From a virus: a DNA stretch of 26,682 bases. The position numbers were made by a program, and so were the translations under genes. Position 1 is the first letter of the stretch. Each line of letters opens with the position of its first letter. The stretch lies in IMG/VR virus record IMGVR_UViG_3300044641_001154, positions 1-26,682 of that record. One strand, given 5' to 3'. This document shows, piece after piece, positions 921 through 24,146 of the stretch. The notes under the pieces were generated by a model that saw nothing but the letters and a program-made list of their open reading frames with translations, was not told the DNA's origin and searched no databases.

Positions 921-1402
921 GAATCTACTCCTTTGTAAGTGTTGTGCTTTTTCATATTTTCCTTGATTGGAAGATATTGCAAATTGTATTCAACATGAAG
1001 CCCACAAACATTCCTTCCTCGCAAAGGAACAATATGGTCTACATGACAATCCTCTGGGCGGTTGACATATATCTCACGAATCTTTGCCATGTCTGCCCAC
1101 TTTGGTCTTTGACGAATCTCTGCAATCTCACGCAATCTTGAGTGGAATCTACGATAACCTTTTGTGTAAGACTGCCCATGCTTTGTGTTTGCTTTACCCT
1201 GCGCTGGACACGACACCTCAGTCCGATAGCATCCGCATGACTTGGTGTGACCTGTGCGTAGTTTCTTGCCATCAACCACAACCTTATTCCCGCACTCACA
1301 AACACAGTTCCACGCCGCACGGGTTTCTTGATTAGGCGCACGGGCAACGACAGTTAGTCTGCCGTGTTTCTGCCCAACCATGTCAATTAGAAAGCCCATC
1401 AC
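905..1402 (-). CDS. HNH endonuclease (free-standing homing type)
   Basis: A 165-residue protein. The N-terminal domain (about residues 8-60) opens with GQKHGRLTVVARAPNQ and carries a zinc-knuckle arrangement (C33, C35, C37, C56, C58) common in phage HNH proteins. The C-terminal HNH nuclease core has HVDHIVPLRG (about 120-129), Asn140 and the NMKKHN end (149-154), giving the His/Asn/His metal-binding set. It would nick or cut double-stranded DNA and typically spreads itself among related phages. The GTG at 1402 overlaps the adhesin stop as GTGA; the ATG at 1399 is an equally possible start. It interrupts the otherwise coherent tail fibre to assembly-protein order, as expected of a mobile gene. 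Confidence 0.88.
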   Translation of the reverse strand: MMGFLIDMVGQKHGRLTVVARAPNQETRAAWNCVCECGNKVVVDGKKLRTGHTKSCGCYRTEVSCPAQGKANTKHGQSYTKGYRRFHSRLREIAEIRQRPKWADMAKIREIYVNRPEDCHVDHIVPLRGRNVCGLHVEYNLQYLPIKENMKKHNTYKGVDSWHSS

Positions 1403-4221
1403 CGCCCCAAGGAATATTTGAAAGGATTTTCCGCTAGTGCCATATATATGTAGGTTCCACCAGATTCATTATGGCTTGAAGTTCTAAACTTAAATCCGTT
1501 TGACAAAAAGTCAATGTCGTAAGTCGATGTAACTTCTGCGCTTGATGAATTTGCCCATACCCGACTATTTGTTGTGTTGTATGTGTTTCTAGCGGCATCA
1601 TGAATAGCCCAATCAGATGTGCTGTCGGTTCGTTTCATCATCACATATCTAGGGCGAAAGTTCAAAAACACAAAAGGCCCATCCGAGGAACCATTGCCCA
1701 CATAACTACCAAAGGCAGAATAGCCAGCCACGGGTGCAAAAGCGTAGCAAATCATGCCAGCCGCATTACTGCCATTTGTCTTGTTGTCTGTACCGACAGA
1801 GAACACAGTAGATGTTGGCGTTGTGTTGTTCCAATAAGCGGCACTTGTTCCTGACTGGGCGTTTGTGCTGTTAAGGTTTAAAAGTCTTTGATTGCCAACA
1901 GACACATGATAAACAGCCCAATTGTCTGCATTACCGCGTTCTTTAATAACAATCATACTTGGCGCAACACCCAAACCATGCCCAACAGTAGCGTTAGCAC
2001 CAGTACCCGTATAAGTAACAATCGAAAACCCGCTAGTCGTATTCGCCCTGACTGTGCTGGTTATGGTGCCAGAGGTGTTGGTAGCGTTAGAGCCGCCAGC
2101 GTTCCAATTCCACGCTACATAGGTTTGACCGCTGTCATTAACTTGAGTTGACCCAATACTGAAACCATTGGTGTCAAAAGAGGTTAGGCCACTTGCGTCA
2201 GTTGCCTCTGCGTTTGTAAGACTTGAGTAAAGGATTTTAGATGCACCACGAACCGCATCAAACAAACGATGGTTGGCGGCATTACTTCTTGATTTAGCCC
2301 ACACCCAATCAGGCTGGAATCCAACCCCTGTAATGCTTTGCGTAGACCCATTACCCGTGTACAACACCGTATTAAAGTAATCATTTGCCTGTGTAGTGCT
2401 AGTAGCACCGATAGTCGGCGTAGGCAGATTAGTTGTACACAATGCCTTAGCACCAGATGGAGCGGTGTAAGCAAAAGGTCGTTGACCGCAATTTAATGTT
2501 TCTACCCCGGCTCCACCAATACCAGCGGCAATTGCATAAACAACGCCACTATTAAGAGTTATAGTTGAACCCTGTAAAACATTGTTTTTGTAGAACGATA
2601 AAGTCGGCGGTGAAACCGTTGCATCAAATAAACCGCCGATTATGTCACCTGATGTATATGTTGCTCCCCAAGAACCAGTACTTCCTGCCCCACCTGTGTA
2701 AAGTGTTCCGTTGTTGTAATATGCCTTTGCATAAGTTGTTGAGTAAAACGGTTGCGTTGAAACAGGTGAAGTTACATCGCAAATACCTACGTTTGTATTG
2801 CTTCCAGCAAGTTGCTCCCAATACCATTTTCCGCTAGAGGGAAACGGAATTGTGACTCGCTTGGTACCGCTATCATTAACAATCTCAAGGTTTCCGTTTG
2901 TTGGGGATGCCCCGCTACGGTCAATTGGATTCCAAGTACAGTAATTCCCACGCACCTCACCACCAACACCAGTATCGGTTCCGTAGGATGTGGGCGAATC
3001 TACTAAGGAGTCATTGCCAGCACCAGCGGTTACAGAGAAGTTATTAGTTTGCCATTGATTGACACCAAAACTACCGGTTTCATACAACATGACTTGCCCA
3101 AATCTAGTATTGTTTGTGCCGTTTCCATTTATTACAATCCGATGGTATCTATAAGCCGTTGAAGTTGTGATTCCACTTGTTACCAAAACGGATTGATTGA
3201 ATCCTGCTGGTGTTGTTCCTGAATATAAATCAACAACGCTACTTGAAAAATTATCCGTACTTCCTTGTAATTTAAATCCAACTGCAACTTGATTGCCAAT
3301 AAAACCGTCGTTTGTTGGGCTGTTTATTTGAAACGCCGTGATGGTTTTTGTAACTCCAGAACCCCAATCTTTTCCAACTGAATTCGTTGTTACATATCCA
3401 CTTGTAGTAGTTGAGGAAACAGCAGAAGATGCCTCATTGTTAAATGCACCGTTAAATGCTGCCGCAAGACCACCATTAGAAGTCATTCCTCCGATGTTAG
3501 TGCCGCTTGTAAGTCGCTTACTAAATGACCCAGTTGCGCTGTCGCTTGCAACATCAACAAGAGTGCTATTGTCTGAAAACGATAATTCAAAGCCGTTAGT
3601 GCCGTATGTGCCGGTGTAAGGTATTGGCTCCCATACGCCTGTTGATGCGTTGGTTTGACCAAAGGAAGATGGCGTTAGGGCTTGACCGTCAATGAAGTTT
3701 ACTTCGGTTATGTAGCCGTTGAAGTATGAAGCACCAAGATTATTGCCTATACGATGACTTGCAGCAGTATTTATACCAAGGTCTGCATTCTGACTTGGGT
3801 TATTTAGAGTTCCAAAACTTGTTTCTTCAACTCCGTTGATGTATAAACGAATTCGATTATTTGCGGTTGCTTGTGTAGTGTCAACTGTACAAACAATGTG
3901 ATACCAAGCAGACGGGTCACGGAATACTCTAGTAGTGGCTCTCCAGTTAGTTGACCAACCTTGTATCAAAATCTGTTCGGATGAATTAAAAGTTATGCTG
4001 AAATATCCATTGTCATCGCTAGATGCGCTGGCGGCAAAAAGAGGGTCATTACTACCTAACGAACTTCTCTTAACCCAACCACTCCAAGTCCAAGTCTTAC
4101 GGTTTGAAGCAGAGCCTGGTGTTCTATTCAGATACGTACTATCCGCAAAGTTAAACCGCAGACTGCGCTCTATCTGATAACCCCCCGCAGAGGTATGGGC
4201 ATTACCTTGAATTATGCTCAT
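1399..4221 (-). CDS. Large tail adhesin with LamG, SPRY-like and DUF7483-like modules
   Basis: A 940-residue virion protein, probably the distal receptor-binding fibre or spike. The N-terminal segment (about 20-190) is LamG/concanavalin-like: WTWSGWVKRSS, WYHIVCTVD and LYINGVEE are classical LamG strands. A middle segment (about 270-385) ending YHRIVINGNG resembles a discoidin-type beta-sandwich. A segment near 430-590 with GKWYWEQLAG and NVGIC is SPRY/B30.2-like. The last third has GFQPDWVWAKSR and YVAWNWNAGG and matches what I know as DUF7483 of phage tail proteins. Very Ser/Thr/Gly/Asn-rich composition suits an exposed beta-structured adhesin. Its ATG overlaps the upstream fibre stop as ATGA. 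Domain limits are estimates from motif reading. Confidence 0.8.
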   Translation of the reverse strand: MSIIQGNAHTSAGGYQIERSLRFNFADSTYLNRTPGSASNRKTWTWSGWVKRSSLGSNDPLFAASASSDDNGYFSITFNSSEQILIQGWSTNWRATTRVFRDPSAWYHIVCTVDTTQATANNRIRLYINGVEETSFGTLNNPSQNADLGINTAASHRIGNNLGASYFNGYITEVNFIDGQALTPSSFGQTNASTGVWEPIPYTGTYGTNGFELSFSDNSTLVDVASDSATGSFSKRLTSGTNIGGMTSNGGLAAAFNGAFNNEASSAVSSTTTSGYVTTNSVGKDWGSGVTKTITAFQINSPTNDGFIGNQVAVGFKLQGSTDNFSSSVVDLYSGTTPAGFNQSVLVTSGITTSTAYRYHRIVINGNGTNNTRFGQVMLYETGSFGVNQWQTNNFSVTAGAGNDSLVDSPTSYGTDTGVGGEVRGNYCTWNPIDRSGASPTNGNLEIVNDSGTKRVTIPFPSSGKWYWEQLAGSNTNVGICDVTSPVSTQPFYSTTYAKAYYNNGTLYTGGAGSTGSWGATYTSGDIIGGLFDATVSPPTLSFYKNNVLQGSTITLNSGVVYAIAAGIGGAGVETLNCGQRPFAYTAPSGAKALCTTNLPTPTIGATSTTQANDYFNTVLYTGNGSTQSITGVGFQPDWVWAKSRSNAANHRLFDAVRGASKILYSSLTNAEATDASGLTSFDTNGFSIGSTQVNDSGQTYVAWNWNAGGSNATNTSGTITSTVRANTTSGFSIVTYTGTGANATVGHGLGVAPSMIVIKERGNADNWAVYHVSVGNQRLLNLNSTNAQSGTSAAYWNNTTPTSTVFSVGTDNKTNGSNAAGMICYAFAPVAGYSAFGSYVGNGSSDGPFVFLNFRPRYVMMKRTDSTSDWAIHDAARNTYNTTNSRVWANSSSAEVTSTYDIDFLSNGFKFRTSSHNESGGTYIYMALAENPFKYSLGR

Positions 4222-5075: not shown

Positions 5076-6881
5076 TTACTCCAATCCAAAAATTGAGCCA
5101 TATCCGAGGTTTACTGCTCGGCGTTGCAGTTCTTGCGAAATCGGTTCCATAGTTGTGGTTGTTGCTTTTTGCATAAGTCTCGCCGCCAACTTTGGGTCAA
5201 GCATAGCGTCTACTAACACCTCACGAATGGCATCGTCTGTGCCATTGTAAAGCCAGTTTAATGGCGCAGCCACCTTGTTTAAGAATGGGCTAGTCTCGCC
5301 AAATATCTGTTTGCCAACAATCCCACCAATTACGTTGGCGGTAGACATATTCTTGAAGGTATCAGAGCCAGGAGACTTAGCTGCGCGGGCAAGAACCCCG
5401 TCGTCTAAATCTTTGCTAACCCGTTGCAATACGCCAAACTGTGTCCTAGATAATCCCCCAAGTTTGGGGTCATCTTCTAGCGAACGAATGGCGCGGGTAA
5501 AGGCGGGTTGCGAAATCAAGAAGTCTCCGACACGCCCGATGTCTGGGGTGGTAGATAGGACTCTCTTGCGAAAGTCTTGAACAGCCTCTAGGCGTTCAAT
5601 GCCACGGCTAGATGCAGCGTATTTGCTAAGATAATCTTTATACCCCGGAGCAGAAGATTCTAGTACGTCGTCAATTGACCGAATCACCGTTTCTAATTCG
5701 CTCTTGGCTAGGTTGTAAGCCGACCCCTCTTTATTGAGAAGCCCTTGCGCCGCGTCTCGAAGGTCTTTACGAACCTCATACAGTCTTTCTGGTGTCGTTC
5801 CATCTTTTAGTCTGTCGCTGGCAAATGCCATTGCGTCTTTAACCGGCTTTCTTGCTCCAGGAGCAGAGACTAAAATGTCGTCAATTGACTTTCCTACTGT
5901 TGACGCAACAGAAGATTGGAAAACCTCTGGCGAAACCGTTGCTTGAGCAAAAGCCGATTCTCTCAACGGGTCTGCAACCTCGTCACGCTTGGCGATTGCG
6001 CCTGTTAGTGCTTCCTTGTCTTTAGCCATGCGGTCAAGGATATTTGTACGGGCTTGATTTGCTTGGCTTGTCTGTGCCGCAAACTTACCCGTAACGTCTA
6101 ATGCGCGGATTGGTGTCTCTGCGGCTACTAGACCAACATCGCGTGTAGCCTGTGCGGTTGTCGGGCGGTAGCCAGGAATTGTCGGCTTGTATGCTAACGC
6201 GCTAGTGATAGCGGCCTCTGGCTGAGCAGATAATTGGCGCAGTACATTACCGGCAATTACTTCCCTACCGGCTTCTGTAAATGGGCGCACAGTTTCTACT
6301 GCACCACGCGCACCGCGACCTGCGGCAGTAGCCATTGTTCCTGGTGCAATTGTTCCACCTAAAGCGGCTAGTCCAAGTTGTCCTAGAGGGCCAGCACCTT
6401 CTTCTCTGCCCATACCGGCTGCACCAGCAGCACCAATAGCACCTGCGGTTTGCATACCAAGGCGTTCTGTAAGAGGGGCAACGGCTTGTCCTAGAGGGCG
6501 AAGCATGGCGGCAGTACCGCCAACGCCAGCCATACCAGAGGCAATGTCTTGCACAACCCGTTCTCTAGCGGTCTGCGCTTCTGGCAACCCCGCTTGGGTC
6601 ATTAACTGCTGTGCGGCTCTTGTTGGGGACGGGAAAACCTCGCGCCCAGCAATTGTGTTGAGCAACGCATTTAACCCCTCGCCAAACATAAGAGGTAATC
6701 CTGCAACCCCAGTAAGACCGGCGCGAGCAGTAAGACCCAATTGGCGGCCTATTTCGCCACCAGTTTGTTCGCTTCCAGTTTTTAGTTGTACTTGGCTAAT
6801 TATTTCCTGTTCTGATAGTTCTCTGTCGGACTTGACCTCAAACTTGCCGACATTTGGAATATCAACTTCATAGGTAGGCAT
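5076..6881 (-). CDS. Large internal virion / DNA ejection protein
   Basis: A 601-residue protein, the largest of the ejection block. The first ~33 residues (YEVDIPNVGKFEVKSDRELS) resemble the short N-terminal domain on many phage tail or internal proteins. Residues about 45-190 are rich in Gly/Ala with hydrophobic stretches (GLTARAGLTGVAGLPLM and similar), suited to membrane insertion. The rest (about 200-600) is charged and mainly helical with coiled-coil tendency. No lytic transglycosylase or peptidase motif was recognised. By size, composition and position next to other internal proteins it is probably ejected with the DNA to form the trans-envelope channel. The specific function is inferred from context. 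Confidence 0.62.
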   Translation of the reverse strand: MPTYEVDIPNVGKFEVKSDRELSEQEIISQVQLKTGSEQTGGEIGRQLGLTARAGLTGVAGLPLMFGEGLNALLNTIAGREVFPSPTRAAQQLMTQAGLPEAQTARERVVQDIASGMAGVGGTAAMLRPLGQAVAPLTERLGMQTAGAIGAAGAAGMGREEGAGPLGQLGLAALGGTIAPGTMATAAGRGARGAVETVRPFTEAGREVIAGNVLRQLSAQPEAAITSALAYKPTIPGYRPTTAQATRDVGLVAAETPIRALDVTGKFAAQTSQANQARTNILDRMAKDKEALTGAIAKRDEVADPLRESAFAQATVSPEVFQSSVASTVGKSIDDILVSAPGARKPVKDAMAFASDRLKDGTTPERLYEVRKDLRDAAQGLLNKEGSAYNLAKSELETVIRSIDDVLESSAPGYKDYLSKYAASSRGIERLEAVQDFRKRVLSTTPDIGRVGDFLISQPAFTRAIRSLEDDPKLGGLSRTQFGVLQRVSKDLDDGVLARAAKSPGSDTFKNMSTANVIGGIVGKQIFGETSPFLNKVAAPLNWLYNGTDDAIREVLVDAMLDPKLAARLMQKATTTTMEPISQELQRRAVNLGYGSIFGLE

Positions 6882-8094: not shown

Positions 8095-8754
8095 TTACCC
8101 TAACAAAGTCGTGAGGTTTGGTACGTCTGGTTGGTACTGCGTTCCTAGCAATCCGGTTTGTGGTTGGCGGGACGCAAGTAGGTTTAGCACCCCAGAATAA
8201 TCCACCCCAGACGGCGTTGCTTGTTGAGACATTTGCTGCGCCTGTGGGATTGCAGTTGGTTGTTGCTGTCCACCCATTAAACTACTAAGTGAGTTTGCGG
8301 CTTTCAACACATCCGTGGTGCTAATTTTGGAAGCTGACTTTCCAACTTCTGAAACCGGTATCGTGTTGTTTATGTATGAATAAATCTCTGCCTCTGGCAG
8401 TCCCATTCCAGCATAAGTTGCGGCTGTTTCTGCGAGTCCAGTTGGAACCCCTGCGTATGACAGGGTAGAGGATATTTGGGCTGTTGAAAGCCCCTGATTG
8501 GCAAGTTGGGCTGCATCTGCTGCAATAAACTGAGCCTCTGCCGCAGATAAACCTTCTGCTCCAAAACTAGGCATACCATAGTAAGTTGCGCCACCAAGCG
8601 CGGCAATCGTATACCAACCACCTGGCACTTCTTCGTTTACCCAATCGTCAATATCTCTACCGACTTCACGGATGTCCTCTACGGCTTTGTTTACTGGCTT
8701 ACTTAACTCGTCAATCGTTAAGTCAATCCCTGTATTTTTTTCAACCCAACCCAT
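8095..8754 (-). CDS. Small internal virion protein
   Basis: A 219-residue protein. It has an acidic N-terminal segment (about 1-45), a short hydrophobic Gly/Ala stretch (about 48-60), an Ala-rich helical middle with repeated LSAAEAQ / LSTAQI / LPEAEI motifs (roughly 70-130), and a Gln/Pro-rich tail. The evenly spaced (G)LS/LP-x-A-E/Q-I motifs suggest short tandem helical repeats. A GGTGGGAAA ribosome binding site precedes the ATG, and the start lies 14 bases inside the upstream gene. It is probably part of the ejection complex. No enzymatic motif is seen. Confidence 0.5.
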   Translation of the reverse strand: MGWVEKNTGIDLTIDELSKPVNKAVEDIREVGRDIDDWVNEEVPGGWYTIAALGGATYYGMPSFGAEGLSAAEAQFIAADAAQLANQGLSTAQISSTLSYAGVPTGLAETAATYAGMGLPEAEIYSYINNTIPVSEVGKSASKISTTDVLKAANSLSSLMGGQQQPTAIPQAQQMSQQATPSGVDYSGVLNLLASRQPQTGLLGTQYQPDVPNLTTLLG

Positions 8755-9133
8755 TTTCCCACCTTTGTAGTTTGGTTATCCCTTTGTGAGTCCCTAGACT
8801 TTTATCGTCTGACATCACAACTTCATCACCGTATCTTGAATAGACCGACTTTAACCTCTCGTCAGTAAAGTAAGTAATTGCGTACTCTTTGTCTTTAATC
8901 GCATTAAAGAAGTCTCGTAGATTTTGCAAGAACTCTTTGATGCTATCTGCGTTAATCGTGTGATAAAACACCGCAGAATCCGTGACCCTGAATACTATAA
9001 AAATCGTGTTTCCGAACCTGTAAAACCTTGCACCATTCTTGCTGTGTAGTGCTAAAGACTTCTTCGCATCCTCTATCGTGATGCTCTTGTTGTTCCGCTT
9101 TATGTCCTTTGCAACTAACTCGCCAATGTTCAC
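8741..9133 (-). CDS. Unknown protein, possibly GNAT-like
   Basis: A 130-residue protein with well-ordered globular composition, unlike its low-complexity neighbours. It has alternating strands and helices (FYRFGNTIFIVFRV, then VFYHTINADSIKEFLQNLR, then AITYFTDERLKSVYSRYGD). The order strand, strand, acidic helix, strand, terminal helix is reminiscent of the truncated GNAT-like fold proposed for some podovirus internal virion proteins (T7 gp13 family), but I see no clear acetyl-CoA loop. The GTG at 9133 overlaps the previous stop as GTGA and no good ATG lies near, so a GTG start is likely. The reading frame is well supported; the function is a weak guess. Confidence 0.5.
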   Translation of the reverse strand: MNIGELVAKDIKRNNKSITIEDAKKSLALHSKNGARFYRFGNTIFIVFRVTDSAVFYHTINADSIKEFLQNLRDFFNAIKDKEYAITYFTDERLKSVYSRYGDEVVMSDDKSLGTHKGITKLQRWENGLG

Positions 9134-9822
9134 GCTGCTACATATTTACTATCGTCTACGTTGTTGGGGTGGAACTTTGGTAGGTAGATTCTAAGCATCG
9201 GCAATCCAATCTTAAATCCAACATAACCAAAGCACACCGCTAGGTCTTTCCATGTGGATACCTTCCACAATAACTTTTCTTCCTTGAGTTTCTTAATTGT
9301 GTAACTTAGCAAGAATCCAATCACATACTTCTGGTTGACGCGGGCAATCTTGCGTAATTCCTTGCGCGACAGTCCTAGGTAGTCCCACAGGTCTAGGGCT
9401 AGGGTTTTGTGCCCAAGTTCTTCCTTCGCGTGCCAGCAGAACAGTTTGAAGTCTCGACCTTCTCTGGTTCCCCAACGGTCAATGTAAGACCTTGCCATGC
9501 AGGAGGCTAGGTGTTCTATGGATACCATAGTCCCTAGCCAGAAAGTCATCCCCGGTCTGCGGTGGATTATCTTGGTATTCGCAAACTCTTGCTTCTCTGC
9601 ATCTTTGAGGTTGTGCCTGTCGTTAAACGACTCATGGGCACTTGCGTGGGACATTTCCTCTTGGACAAACTTAATCATCCGTCTGCGTAAATCTTCGTCC
9701 TTTACGCTTGGCAGGTGGTGGTTAATGACTGCGGCAAAGGCTTTCTCCCACGCTGGGAAGATGACGCTAGACGCATTTCCGTAGTGCGTCCACACCGCCG
9801 AATTGTCACACCAGTAGGTCAA
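9130..9822 (-). CDS. Ferritin-like diiron protein of the PF10118 (metal-dependent hydrolase) type
   Basis: A 230-residue helical protein whose putative ligands follow the diiron four-helix-bundle pattern: E26 (FPAWEKAF), E56-x2-H59 (QEEMSHASAHESFN), E103 (SIEH), and E135-x2-H138 (WHAKEELGHKTLALD). These segments match what I know of PF10118, called predicted metal-dependent hydrolases, whose members have a FP-x-x-E start, a QE-x-x-H motif and a WH-x-x-EE-x-x-H motif. It would bind two irons (or Mn/Fe) and could act as an oxygenase, oxidase or hydrolase; the substrate is unknown. The TTG at 9822 overlaps the upstream stop as TTGA with a GGGGG-containing site upstream; the first internal ATG (residue 50) would remove the first ligand helix. 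It is an enzyme gene embedded in the ejection-protein operon. Confidence 0.8.
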   Translation of the reverse strand: MTYWCDNSAVWTHYGNASSVIFPAWEKAFAAVINHHLPSVKDEDLRRRMIKFVQEEMSHASAHESFNDRHNLKDAEKQEFANTKIIHRRPGMTFWLGTMVSIEHLASCMARSYIDRWGTREGRDFKLFCWHAKEELGHKTLALDLWDYLGLSRKELRKIARVNQKYVIGFLLSYTIKKLKEEKLLWKVSTWKDLAVCFGYVGFKIGLPMLRIYLPKFHPNNVDDSKYVAA

Positions 9823-10940
9823 AGCAATAGACCCCCTAGACCACCAAGAATTGCGCCTGTCTGCGACCCAGAAAGACCGCCAATACCGCCAAACATACTT
9901 CCCACCTGAGAACCAAGCATTGCCCCGCCTAAACCTTGCGTAAGGTAGTTCGTCTTTGGCTCTGATGGTGGTGGCGCAAACTGCGAACTTCCCATCGGGG
10001 TTCCGTAGACAGAGGACAAGAACCCTTGTAACTGCTGGTACGGAAGTTGTTGCGAATACTGGTATCTCTGTATTGCCTCTTGCAAGGGTTTGGCGGCAAT
10101 TGCTTCCCGCGCTGCACCAACTTGAGCCAACGTCTGAGCCGGTAGGAAGGAAGACTGATAGAAACTTGGGGCGGCTTGAGCCAATGCTGCCTGTCCAAGC
10201 TGCGCCTGTTGTTGCAATCCGCGCTCACGGGCGTAATCTTGACCAATGATGTTGGCAGAAACGTCGCCTAAAGCCCTTCCGTAGGCTTCCGTAGCCCCGC
10301 CAAGGGCACGTTCCATCGCTCCTGACCCGTAGCGTCCAGCGCGTGAGTAGAGGCTTGCGATACCCGGAACAATCTGCTCACCATATTGTTGTGTAAGAGG
10401 TCTTGCAGCGGCTTGAACCATAGCCTGTTGGTATGGGTTGCCTTGTAAGAACCCACCTGCGGCGGTCTGCCCAATCTGTCCCAAAGACGACAGGTAGCCC
10501 TGTTGCCCTGCGCTTATAAACGGAGATGCCGCACCAGCCAACTGCTCTTGCATCGCCAACGCCTGTTCGGTCTGCTGGCTTGGGGAGACGTACATCTGTC
10601 CAGGGTATAGGCTAGGTTGTGGCTCTCCGAAGAAAAGTCTCTCTGCCCTCTGTAAACCCATCTGGAGGTACGGTGCTAGGCGTGGGTCAATCCTTGACTC
10701 GCCACTAGCTGCGCCACGGGCGGGGGATAATTCACTAGGAGAACCGCCTGGAATGGTAGTTGGCGCAATCGCCGTGGGTGTCGCGGTGGTTGGTGTAACC
10801 GCCTGTCCAACTTGCTGTGTCGCTACCGGTGCTACTGGAGCAAATGCCGACCCAAAAAAGTTGCCGAACATTCCGGTCGGTAATGTTGTTCCACCCGTTT
10901 GTGGCTGGGCGACAGCAGAGACGTTAGAGAATGAGGACAT
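9819..10940 (-). CDS. Ala/Gln/Gly-rich ejection protein with C-terminal glycine zipper
   Basis: A 373-residue protein. The N-terminus (1-80) is Pro/Thr/Ala-rich and likely disordered. The middle (about 85-310) is Ala/Gln-rich helix with short motifs around QQYGEQIVPGIASLYSRAGR and YGSGAMERALGGATEAYGR. The C-terminus (about 335-373) is a glycine zipper (GGAMLGSQVGSMFGGIGG) of the kind that packs helices in membranes. This composition is typical of podovirus internal proteins that enter the host envelope with the DNA. A site reading AGGTGAT lies just before the ATG. It opens the ejection block, after the tail tube/stabilisation genes. Confidence 0.6.
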   Translation of the reverse strand: MSSFSNVSAVAQPQTGGTTLPTGMFGNFFGSAFAPVAPVATQQVGQAVTPTTATPTAIAPTTIPGGSPSELSPARGAASGESRIDPRLAPYLQMGLQRAERLFFGEPQPSLYPGQMYVSPSQQTEQALAMQEQLAGAASPFISAGQQGYLSSLGQIGQTAAGGFLQGNPYQQAMVQAAARPLTQQYGEQIVPGIASLYSRAGRYGSGAMERALGGATEAYGRALGDVSANIIGQDYARERGLQQQAQLGQAALAQAAPSFYQSSFLPAQTLAQVGAAREAIAAKPLQEAIQRYQYSQQLPYQQLQGFLSSVYGTPMGSSQFAPPPSEPKTNYLTQGLGGAMLGSQVGSMFGGIGGLSGSQTGAILGGLGGLLL

Positions 10941-14534: not shown

Positions 14535-15155
14535 TTACCTCGTTGTAACGGTCATAACTAAGGGAACACCAGAAAACTCACTCTCCTCGTCGGAGGTGTT
14601 GATGCGGGTTATTGCTTGGTTGTAGAGGCTTGACCACGTTTGTGTACGCGGGTCGTTCATAAGGTACGGCTCTGCCTCTAAGAGGGAAGCGTAGAGCAGC
14701 GCGTCTGGGTAGTTAGCCAAGAACTCGTTGCTAGTATTGCCTGACGACAGAACCACGGGCTTGAAGTAGTAAAGCATCTGCAAGACGTAGGCGCTGTCAG
14801 GCTTTGGCGCGAACTCTAGCTCGTTGCTCCGCATTGTGTAGAACACCGGCAGTCCAATCTGGTCTGCGCGGGAGTTGCTAGAGAAAGCACTTGGTGAGAG
14901 GTAGGTCACTACCGTTCTCGGTAAACCCTGAATAAACACATCACGGATGGACAAAAAGTCGCTTGGCAGTCCTACCGTCGGGTCGCCTACGGTCATGGTA
15001 GCCGTAGAGGTCTTGAGCATCCTGCGGGTACGAATGTCGCGGGATAGGCGCAACTCCGCTAGGGAGATAAAGTCAGGAATCTGGCTGGTAAGGTCACTCC
15101 GTCCGAGGTAGTTGGCTACCGATGTCTGGAGGTCGCTGAAAGTCGCTAGGGCCAT
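14535..15155 (-). CDS. Head-to-tail adaptor (connector) protein
   Basis: A 206-residue protein, start chosen at the ATG at 15155 (MALATFSDLQ). The longer reading from 15188 would need a TTG and adds residues with no family support. It has MALATFSDLQTSVANYLGRS, then ISLAELRLSRDIRTRRM, then a beta part and FLANYPDALLYASLLEAEPY near the C-terminus. This is the layout of short-tailed phage adaptor proteins (P22 gp4 / T7 gp11-like role) that bind the portal base and start the tail. The gene overlaps the end of the glycosyltransferase gene by 62 bases. Placement between head and tail genes supports the call. Confidence 0.7.
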   Translation of the reverse strand: MALATFSDLQTSVANYLGRSDLTSQIPDFISLAELRLSRDIRTRRMLKTSTATMTVGDPTVGLPSDFLSIRDVFIQGLPRTVVTYLSPSAFSSNSRADQIGLPVFYTMRSNELEFAPKPDSAYVLQMLYYFKPVVLSSGNTSNEFLANYPDALLYASLLEAEPYLMNDPRTQTWSSLYNQAITRINTSDEESEFSGVPLVMTVTTR

Positions 15156-15834
15156 TGTAGTCGTTCCATGAATAAGTGTAAGACCCAACGTGTCCTATTG
15201 CGTTGGACAGGTGGTGGTCTAAATAAGTATCGAATCCTGCGTCCTTTGCCTTGATGCAGAAGTACACATCCTCGCCTAGCAGCTTGTCGCCAGGTATCTT
15301 CTCGAACCAGAACCAAGGTCTCGGCGTGTTCTCAAACACCTCCCGCTTGACCATCATCACCCCGCAACCAATCGCGGTCACACACTCTAGGTGGGTCTTG
15401 TCTTTAGAGACGATTGGAATCCAATGATTCTCTTTCTTCTCAAAGTCTATCTCTAGGTTCTTTGCCGTAGGTCTTACCGGCGAGGTTCTCGTTGTAGCGT
15501 TCACCCCAACGATGGGCTTGTCGTGCGCGAGCAGTACCTCTATCGTGTTCTTTGGAAACCGCATATCTGCGTCAATCCACAGAATGTAGTCAGCGCCCTC
15601 TTTCAGGGCTTCGGCTGCCAGCTTCTCCCTCTGGTCAAATATCAGGGTTCCCGCTACCGTGTACACCGCTTGGTGTCCGCTACGGTTGCGTGCGTCGTAG
15701 GCACACATTACCGCCAAGTCAAACGCCGTTCCTATCTCCATCTCTCCACGAGAAGGGATACAAATGGCGACTTTCTTATCTTCCCACGGTGCTTTTTGTT
15801 GCTTTGCTTTAATCTTGTCGTGAACCTTGCCCAC
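15094..15834 (-). CDS. GT-A fold glycosyltransferase
   Basis: A 246-residue protein with a GT-A signature: VAICIPSRG strand (22-30), DQREKLAAEALKEGADYILW helix/strand, the metal- and sugar-nucleotide-binding DAD at 88-90 (WIDADMRF), an IGCGVMMVKREVF segment (155-167), and GEDVYFCIKAKDAG (187-200), which in family-2 enzymes carries the catalytic base. It would transfer a sugar from a nucleotide sugar; the acceptor (virion protein, DNA base or host glycan) is unknown. The GTG at 15834 shares a base with the upstream stop (TAGTG) and has a strong GGGGAGGA site. It is the only biosynthetic enzyme inside the head/connector block, which may mean it modifies a structural protein (inference). Confidence 0.78.
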   Translation of the reverse strand: MGKVHDKIKAKQQKAPWEDKKVAICIPSRGEMEIGTAFDLAVMCAYDARNRSGHQAVYTVAGTLIFDQREKLAAEALKEGADYILWIDADMRFPKNTIEVLLAHDKPIVGVNATTRTSPVRPTAKNLEIDFEKKENHWIPIVSKDKTHLECVTAIGCGVMMVKREVFENTPRPWFWFEKIPGDKLLGEDVYFCIKAKDAGFDTYLDHHLSNAIGHVGSYTYSWNDYNGPSDFQRPPDIGSQLPRTE

Positions 15835-23810: not shown

Positions 23811-24146
23811 TTAATCCGATTCTTCTTCGTCTTCTTCCATGCTTTCCCAAGCGTCGCAGACGTTTTCCTTGGAGCACTTAAATTGATAAACGTCGCAAAA
23901 AACCTCGTCCTTGCCGAGTCCACAGCCCTTTAACTTCATGCCGTACTCGCAGTTACCGCACTTTTCTTCGCCCTCGCTAGGGCCGTATTTGGCGGTCAGG
24001 ATGGCTTTTTGCTTGTTGCCCTTGTTGATGGTCTCGTCCTGCGTCGCAAGCGGACACTCGCCGCCCTCGTCTAGCAGACCGCCTTCCATCTCCTTGGACT
24101 CCCTTGGTTTCCCAAGCAGCCCAATCATAATTGTCGGCCCCTTCAT
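23811..24146 (-). CDS. Cysteine-rich protein, HiPIP-like pattern
   Basis: A 111-residue acidic protein. After a Gly/Glu-rich N-terminus it has a cysteine block C63, C66, C75, C84, C91, C97 followed by DAWESMEEDEEES. The EKCGNCEYGM and VCDAWE parts recall high-potential iron-sulphur proteins and similar small proteins of marine/freshwater phages, but the spacing is not an exact match; a zinc-binding domain is equally possible. It is coupled by ATGA to the preceding 24-residue gene. Function is not assigned. Confidence 0.65.
   Translation of the reverse strand: MKGPTIMIGLLGKPRESKEMEGGLLDEGGECPLATQDETINKGNKQKAILTAKYGPSEGEEKCGNCEYGMKLKGCGLGKDEVFCDVYQFKCSKENVCDAWESMEEDEEESD

Follow-up and report, generated by a model that had tools for sequence, protein, structure and literature searches.

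A predicted ferritin-like diiron protein of family PF10118, encoded next to a GNAT-fold partner as an optional gene at a fixed site in the ejection region of uncultivated phages

Several groups of uncultivated phages, with otherwise diverged genes, carry beside their tail, nozzle and ejection genes a gene for a PF10118 protein, predicted to be a ferritin-like diiron protein and coupled to a gene for a GNAT-fold partner. In our preferred reading, to which we assign a probability of roughly 50%, it is an O2-activating diiron enzyme that would be carried with its partner in or on the virion, enter the host and oxidize a small or lipid-like molecule. The gene was analyzed in a window of 26,682 nucleotides, the whole stretch of DNA under study (IMG/VR record IMGVR_UViG_3300044641_001154). 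The positions of the features are collected in Table 1.

Table 1. Features of the diiron locus in the window
Feature	Position	Strand	Basis
DNA-ejection protein, family phrog_4287, upstream neighbor	9819..10940	minus	E 1.4e-13
TTGA overlap, upstream gene stop / diiron gene start	9819..9822	minus	sequence
Diiron gene, PF10118 ferritin-like diiron protein	9130..9822	minus	230 aa, TTG start
E26 codon, putative metal ligand	9745..9747	minus	invariant 46/46
E56-x-x-H59 codons, putative metal ligands	9646..9657	minus	invariant 46/46
E103 codon, putative metal ligand	9514..9516	minus	invariant 46/46
H131-x3-E135-x2-H138 codons, putative metal ligands	9409..9432	minus	invariant 46/46
GTGA overlap, diiron gene stop / partner start	9130..9133	minus	sequence
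GNAT-fold partner, 130 aa, GTG start	8741..9133	minus	model and GNAT structure matches
Low-complexity protein after the GNAT-fold gene, presumed ejection protein	8095..8754	minus	position and composition

The open reading frame singled out by an earlier, sequence-only reading of this DNA is real, and its strand, which that reading had left unstated, is the minus strand. The plus strand of the same interval is stop-rich, and the TTG start is backed by an ATG at the same codon in relatives. The resemblance to PF10118, previously noted from motifs, was borne out by an HMM search: hmmscan scored the protein at 123.8 bits (E = 1.3e-35; curated cutoff, 33.2), with a match spanning profile positions 15 to 247 of 247. 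Searches against the PHROG and NCBIfam profiles and against the sequences of solved structures gave no match, and no signal peptide is evident. Close phage copies of the gene show dN/dS values of 0.02 to 0.05, with differences that are almost all silent. The phage gene is under strong purifying selection.

The residues E26, E56/H59, E103 and E135/H138, first listed as a diiron pattern from the letters alone, are all present, as are the motifs WH-x-x-EE (W130-H131-A-K-E-E) and FP-x-x-E (F22-P23-A-W-E26). These six residues are invariant in 25 aligned phage-type homologues, down to 42% identity, and no homologue lacking them was found among 26 phage and 20 cellular proteins. A seventh putative ligand, the AurF-type histidine H131, was absent from the original list. 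With this residue included, the pattern E26..E56-x2-H59..E103..H131-x3-E135-x2-H138 occurs in all 46 aligned PF10118 proteins; H63 is also kept in 46 of 46, and E134 in all but one.

This pattern is known from the three-histidine diiron N-oxygenases AurF, CmlI, AzoC and DnfA (PF11583). The published ligands are E102, E137, H140, E198, H225, E229 and H232 in AzoC (PMC6783550) and E88, E123, H126, E182, H209, E213 and H216 in DnfA, the latter stated to be identical in AurF and CmlI (PMC9478400). Ligand pattern and local spacing are the same in the phage protein, including the histidine four residues before the last glutamate. A global alignment lines up the HxxxExxH motif with that of AurF-family proteins. 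Taken as single comparisons, hhalign alignments of PF10118 with the AurF-family proteins assembled for this analysis gave E-values of 5.7e-5 for the cellular sequences, 1.5e-4 for the combined set and 3.7e-3 for the phage sequences by themselves; the control families ribonucleotide reductase R2, PaaA/PaaC and DUF455 reached no better than 0.033. Kinship of PF10118 with these controls was discarded, as none gave a convincing profile match. Because of the ligand pattern, the hhalign preference and the motif register, we conclude that PF10118 resembles, and is probably related to, the three-histidine diiron oxygenases. The phage protein shares with them the E..ExxH..E..HxxxExxH pattern, the fold class and profile similarity; however, it is shorter, and identity is only about 10%. 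The AurF/CmlI profile PF11583 was absent among its hits at E-values up to 1, and judged by profile it falls outside that family.

Structure prediction agrees with a diiron bundle. The AlphaFold model of the protein, made with 25 sequences, has a pLDDT of 94.6 and a pTM of 0.90, and it matches diiron bundles over its whole length, as the sequence-only reading had anticipated; the presumed clustering of the putative ligands around a single metal site is placed by alignment and helix positions. Foldseek returned weak E-values, the best being 0.06 for an Arthrobacter protein of ferritin-like fold, and a search of BFVD for structural relatives gave none that were significant. In a second alignment of the Foldseek candidates, CmlI came out on top (Z of 12.6 over 208 residues at 5.0 Å), tied with R2, R2lox, aldehyde-deformylating oxygenase (ADO), methane monooxygenase (sMMO) and others including AurF, at a Z of about 12, which for a helical bundle falls short of the guide value (about 13) given for the tool. 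The matches listed in this alignment are diiron proteins, with oxidases and oxygenases ranked best. Since helical bundles score high in general, these matches are supporting and not decisive. From the model, the protein is predicted to be of the ferritin-like diiron carboxylate fold class.

A ferritin-like bundle with two ExxH motifs would also suit an iron-handling or oxidant-scavenging protein, similar to ferritin or rubrerythrin, that protects phage or host or carries iron. We regard this as very improbable: structure and profile comparisons favor oxygenases, the third histidine is an AurF-type ligand, and flavin monooxygenases lie near the cellular relatives in some loci.

The cellular members of PF10118 (Metal_hydrol, "predicted metal-dependent hydrolase") have with the phage protein a near full-length profile match and all seven putative ligands in common, and they share with the phage copies the motifs FP..E, WHxxEE and FHP. 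In contrast to the cellular proteins, the phage copies begin at profile position 13 to 15 or thereabouts and have invariant residues of their own (C5, W25, R69, W95, R111 and N163). The predicted fold gives no support to the label "hydrolase"; fold and putative ligands would instead argue for an oxygenase. In the class around one metagenome-assembled genome (MAG), 185 genomes were sampled and PF10118 occurs in 17 of them. Among 93 neighbors of cellular PF10118 genes, 4 are FMO-like and 5 are Pyr_redox proteins, and AraC regulators and FMO-like flavin monooxygenases stand near a minority of the cellular loci. This context weakly fits oxidative metabolism over hydrolysis. In a tree of 46 PF10118 proteins, the phage sequences form a clade apart from the cellular ones with 100/100 support and a long branch, although long branches in this tree call for caution. 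Recent capture of a host gene finds no support, as the phage copies form a single deep clade to which none of the sampled cellular proteins belongs.

Within the window, the diiron gene is coupled into the ejection operon, which would be expressed late. The stop/start coupling on both sides, noted earlier from the sequence, is real. The gene was also described as lying between two low-complexity ejection proteins. The upstream neighbor is indeed an ejection protein (phrog_4287), but the downstream one has a GNAT fold; the low-complexity protein that follows the latter had no significant family match. Elsewhere in the window we observed an SU10-type major capsid protein (PF17236; 16207-17160), a likely tail fiber of 940 aa that contains Laminin_G_3 and DUF7483 (1399-4221), an Anp1 or glycosyltransferase-like match among capsid and tail genes (15094-15834; E = 5.7e-7), and two adjacent overlapping genes that each match methyltransferase domains (PF08241; 22119-23130).

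The AlphaFold model of the partner (pLDDT 88.9) was compared by Foldseek and a second aligner, and the matches listed are acetyltransferases almost throughout. Pfam and PHROG profiles gave no confident family match for the partner, and by eye there is no RxxGxG-like acetyl-CoA loop between strand 54-61 and helix 65-78. The aligned partner sequences are too diverged for use in a collection scan. The partner thus has the GNAT fold of phage acetyltransferases such as phrog_1249, and occupies the slot that a canonical GNAT holds in one locus of the window's own group (L111), but unlike the phrog_1249-type proteins its family lacks a visible acetyl-CoA loop and any Pfam or PHROG match. The Rac-type phage GNAT was dismissed as a same-site counterpart, being located elsewhere in its genome.

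The association of the two genes is constant in one direction. Downstream sequence of 420 nt or more was available for 44 distinct diiron genes. A partner-family gene follows directly in 43 of 43 phage genes among them, the exception being a cellular gene (L071). All 44 diiron genes, the cellular one included, end in ATGA, GTGA or CTGA (an xTGA junction). Nine loci that appeared to be partnerless proved to be artefacts of ORF picking or of contig ends. We rejected a pairing that is obligatory in both directions, because in 25 loci the partner occurs alone; the reverse was never seen. The diiron gene depends on the partner, and the partner does not depend on the diiron gene.

These 25 loci come from a survey of 117 loci around three anchor proteins, drawn from lists of the best 80 per scan, some of them capped, and with enough downstream sequence. 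The diiron gene is present in 19 of them, each time with the partner; some loci share one contig, and the counts are not population frequencies. Among close relatives, some have only the partner and some have neither gene; the diiron gene by itself occurs in none. The comparison of L279 and L286 gives a clean one-gene difference at an empty site: in one, an 86-aa gene is joined to the GNAT gene by ATGA, and in the other the diiron gene stands between these two genes with ATGA on both sides. A relative from the window's own group (L110) encodes a 475-aa structural protein identical to that of the window and lacks the diiron gene, with a different small ORF, weakly phrog_610-like, in the slot. 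In the cultured relative Venkman there is no annotated counterpart at the site. The site is fixed across several groups, and it is empty in many close relatives. The diiron gene is an optional unit of one gene there, and since many close relatives do without it, ejection in this phage lineage does not require it.

This distribution bears on the possibility that the diiron protein is a non-catalytic virion or assembly protein, its diiron bundle being a structural or metal-stabilized component of the ejection apparatus on which the GNAT-fold partner is scaffolded. Such a role would suit the fixed position and the obligatory partner, which, having no visible acetyl-CoA loop, may itself be structural. 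Yet close relatives eject without the diiron protein, and all seven putative ligands are invariant both in the cellular relatives and in phages down to 42% identity, so we consider a non-catalytic protein unlikely. That the diiron protein has enzymatic activity is, in our view, highly probable.

Other small genes also occupy the slot. L415:8842-9543 encodes a PP-loop protein resembling QueC (PF06508; E = 3.1e-8), and L370:7023-7670 is an ORF similar to it, which suggests an exchange site for different small enzymes. In L325, two unassigned ORFs of 145 and 186 aa lie at the slot (5847-6284 and 6286-6846); the second is cupin-like by eye and had no Pfam match. The slot genes of L415 and L370 also give weight to a serious rival of virion delivery, namely that the protein is a late auxiliary enzyme that uses the ejection operon for late expression and acts, unpackaged, on a metabolite or lipid before lysis. 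We rate this as a real possibility, though not the favored one. The optional, one-gene nature of the unit, the enzyme-like genes at the slot in L415 and L370, and the catabolic flavin enzymes near some cellular relatives are all consistent with it. What stands against it is the constant site and the invariable GNAT-type partner across phage groups with differing flanks, because one would expect a free metabolic gene to turn up at various sites.

A first scan of IMG/VR yielded 25 viral loci that carry the diiron gene and a second one 46; the carriers are uncultivated phages, mostly from freshwater. A scan of genome contigs added a single locus with a phage-type neighborhood, in a Limnohabitans MAG. 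The contig concerned (L059; CAMDXR010000008.1) has a phage-type diiron gene together with tail genes and is probably a phage contig binned with its host, which makes Limnohabitans a hint at the host. Among annotated phage records, none had the diiron gene on clear phage DNA. Two apparent cases were set aside: a contig filed as "Acinetobacter phage MD-2021a" (L191; CAKLQH020000030.1) carries the bacterial housekeeping genes EF-Tu, ftsK and trxB and looks like host DNA filed as phage, and the match in OQ658364 (Pseudomonas) lies beyond the annotated attR in an unannotated stretch. In one locus (L052:9995-10996), the diiron frame lacks the C-terminal part and runs into unrelated sequence to the contig end; it may be a fusion, a truncation or an assembly join.

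Returning to delivery with the virion, the diiron gene would be translated late with the ejection proteins, directly before its GNAT-fold partner. The two proteins would form a unit that is carried in or on the virion and, as infection begins, would pass into the envelope or the cell of the host. There, the two irons would activate O2, and a small or lipid-like molecule of the host would be oxidized. We judge the chances that the diiron protein is packaged in the virion to be about even. The suggestion of a small or lipid-like substrate has two grounds, the moderately hydrophobic C-terminal helix and the cellular context, and a hydrophobic substrate is doubtful. No electron donor was recognized in the window, where the main ORFs were scanned. 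A small cysteine-rich protein is encoded at 23811-24146 (CxxC and further cysteines, no Pfam match); it is possibly a metal or iron-sulfur protein and conceivably a redox partner.

In its position in the ejection region, the diiron gene resembles the genes of podophage ejection proteins (T7 gp14/15/16 and P22 gp7/20/16), but unlike these it is optional at its site. The transglycosylase T7 gp16 sets a precedent for an enzyme among ejection cargo and has an ejectable enzyme domain (PMC8954989), to which the likeness of the phage diiron gene is one of gene position. We tentatively propose a virion-borne diiron oxygenase that is ejected with the genome and, with its GNAT-fold partner, would chemically alter the envelope or a metabolite of the host as infection starts, encoded at a slot that holds different small enzymes. 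As supposed in the sequence-only reading, no phage function is described for a PF10118-type enzyme in the sources searched; literature searches by COG or InterPro name, and in phage or alkane contexts, returned nothing on such an enzyme, and a single paper in the library covered names the PF10118 accession.

The placement of PF10118, until now labeled a hydrolase, with the three-histidine diiron oxygenases as a probable relative provides a testable chemistry for an uncharacterized family. In phages, it links a putative O2-dependent enzyme with both the ejection operon and a single partner. Should this enzyme be ejected, oxidative chemistry directed at the host would form part of phage entry.
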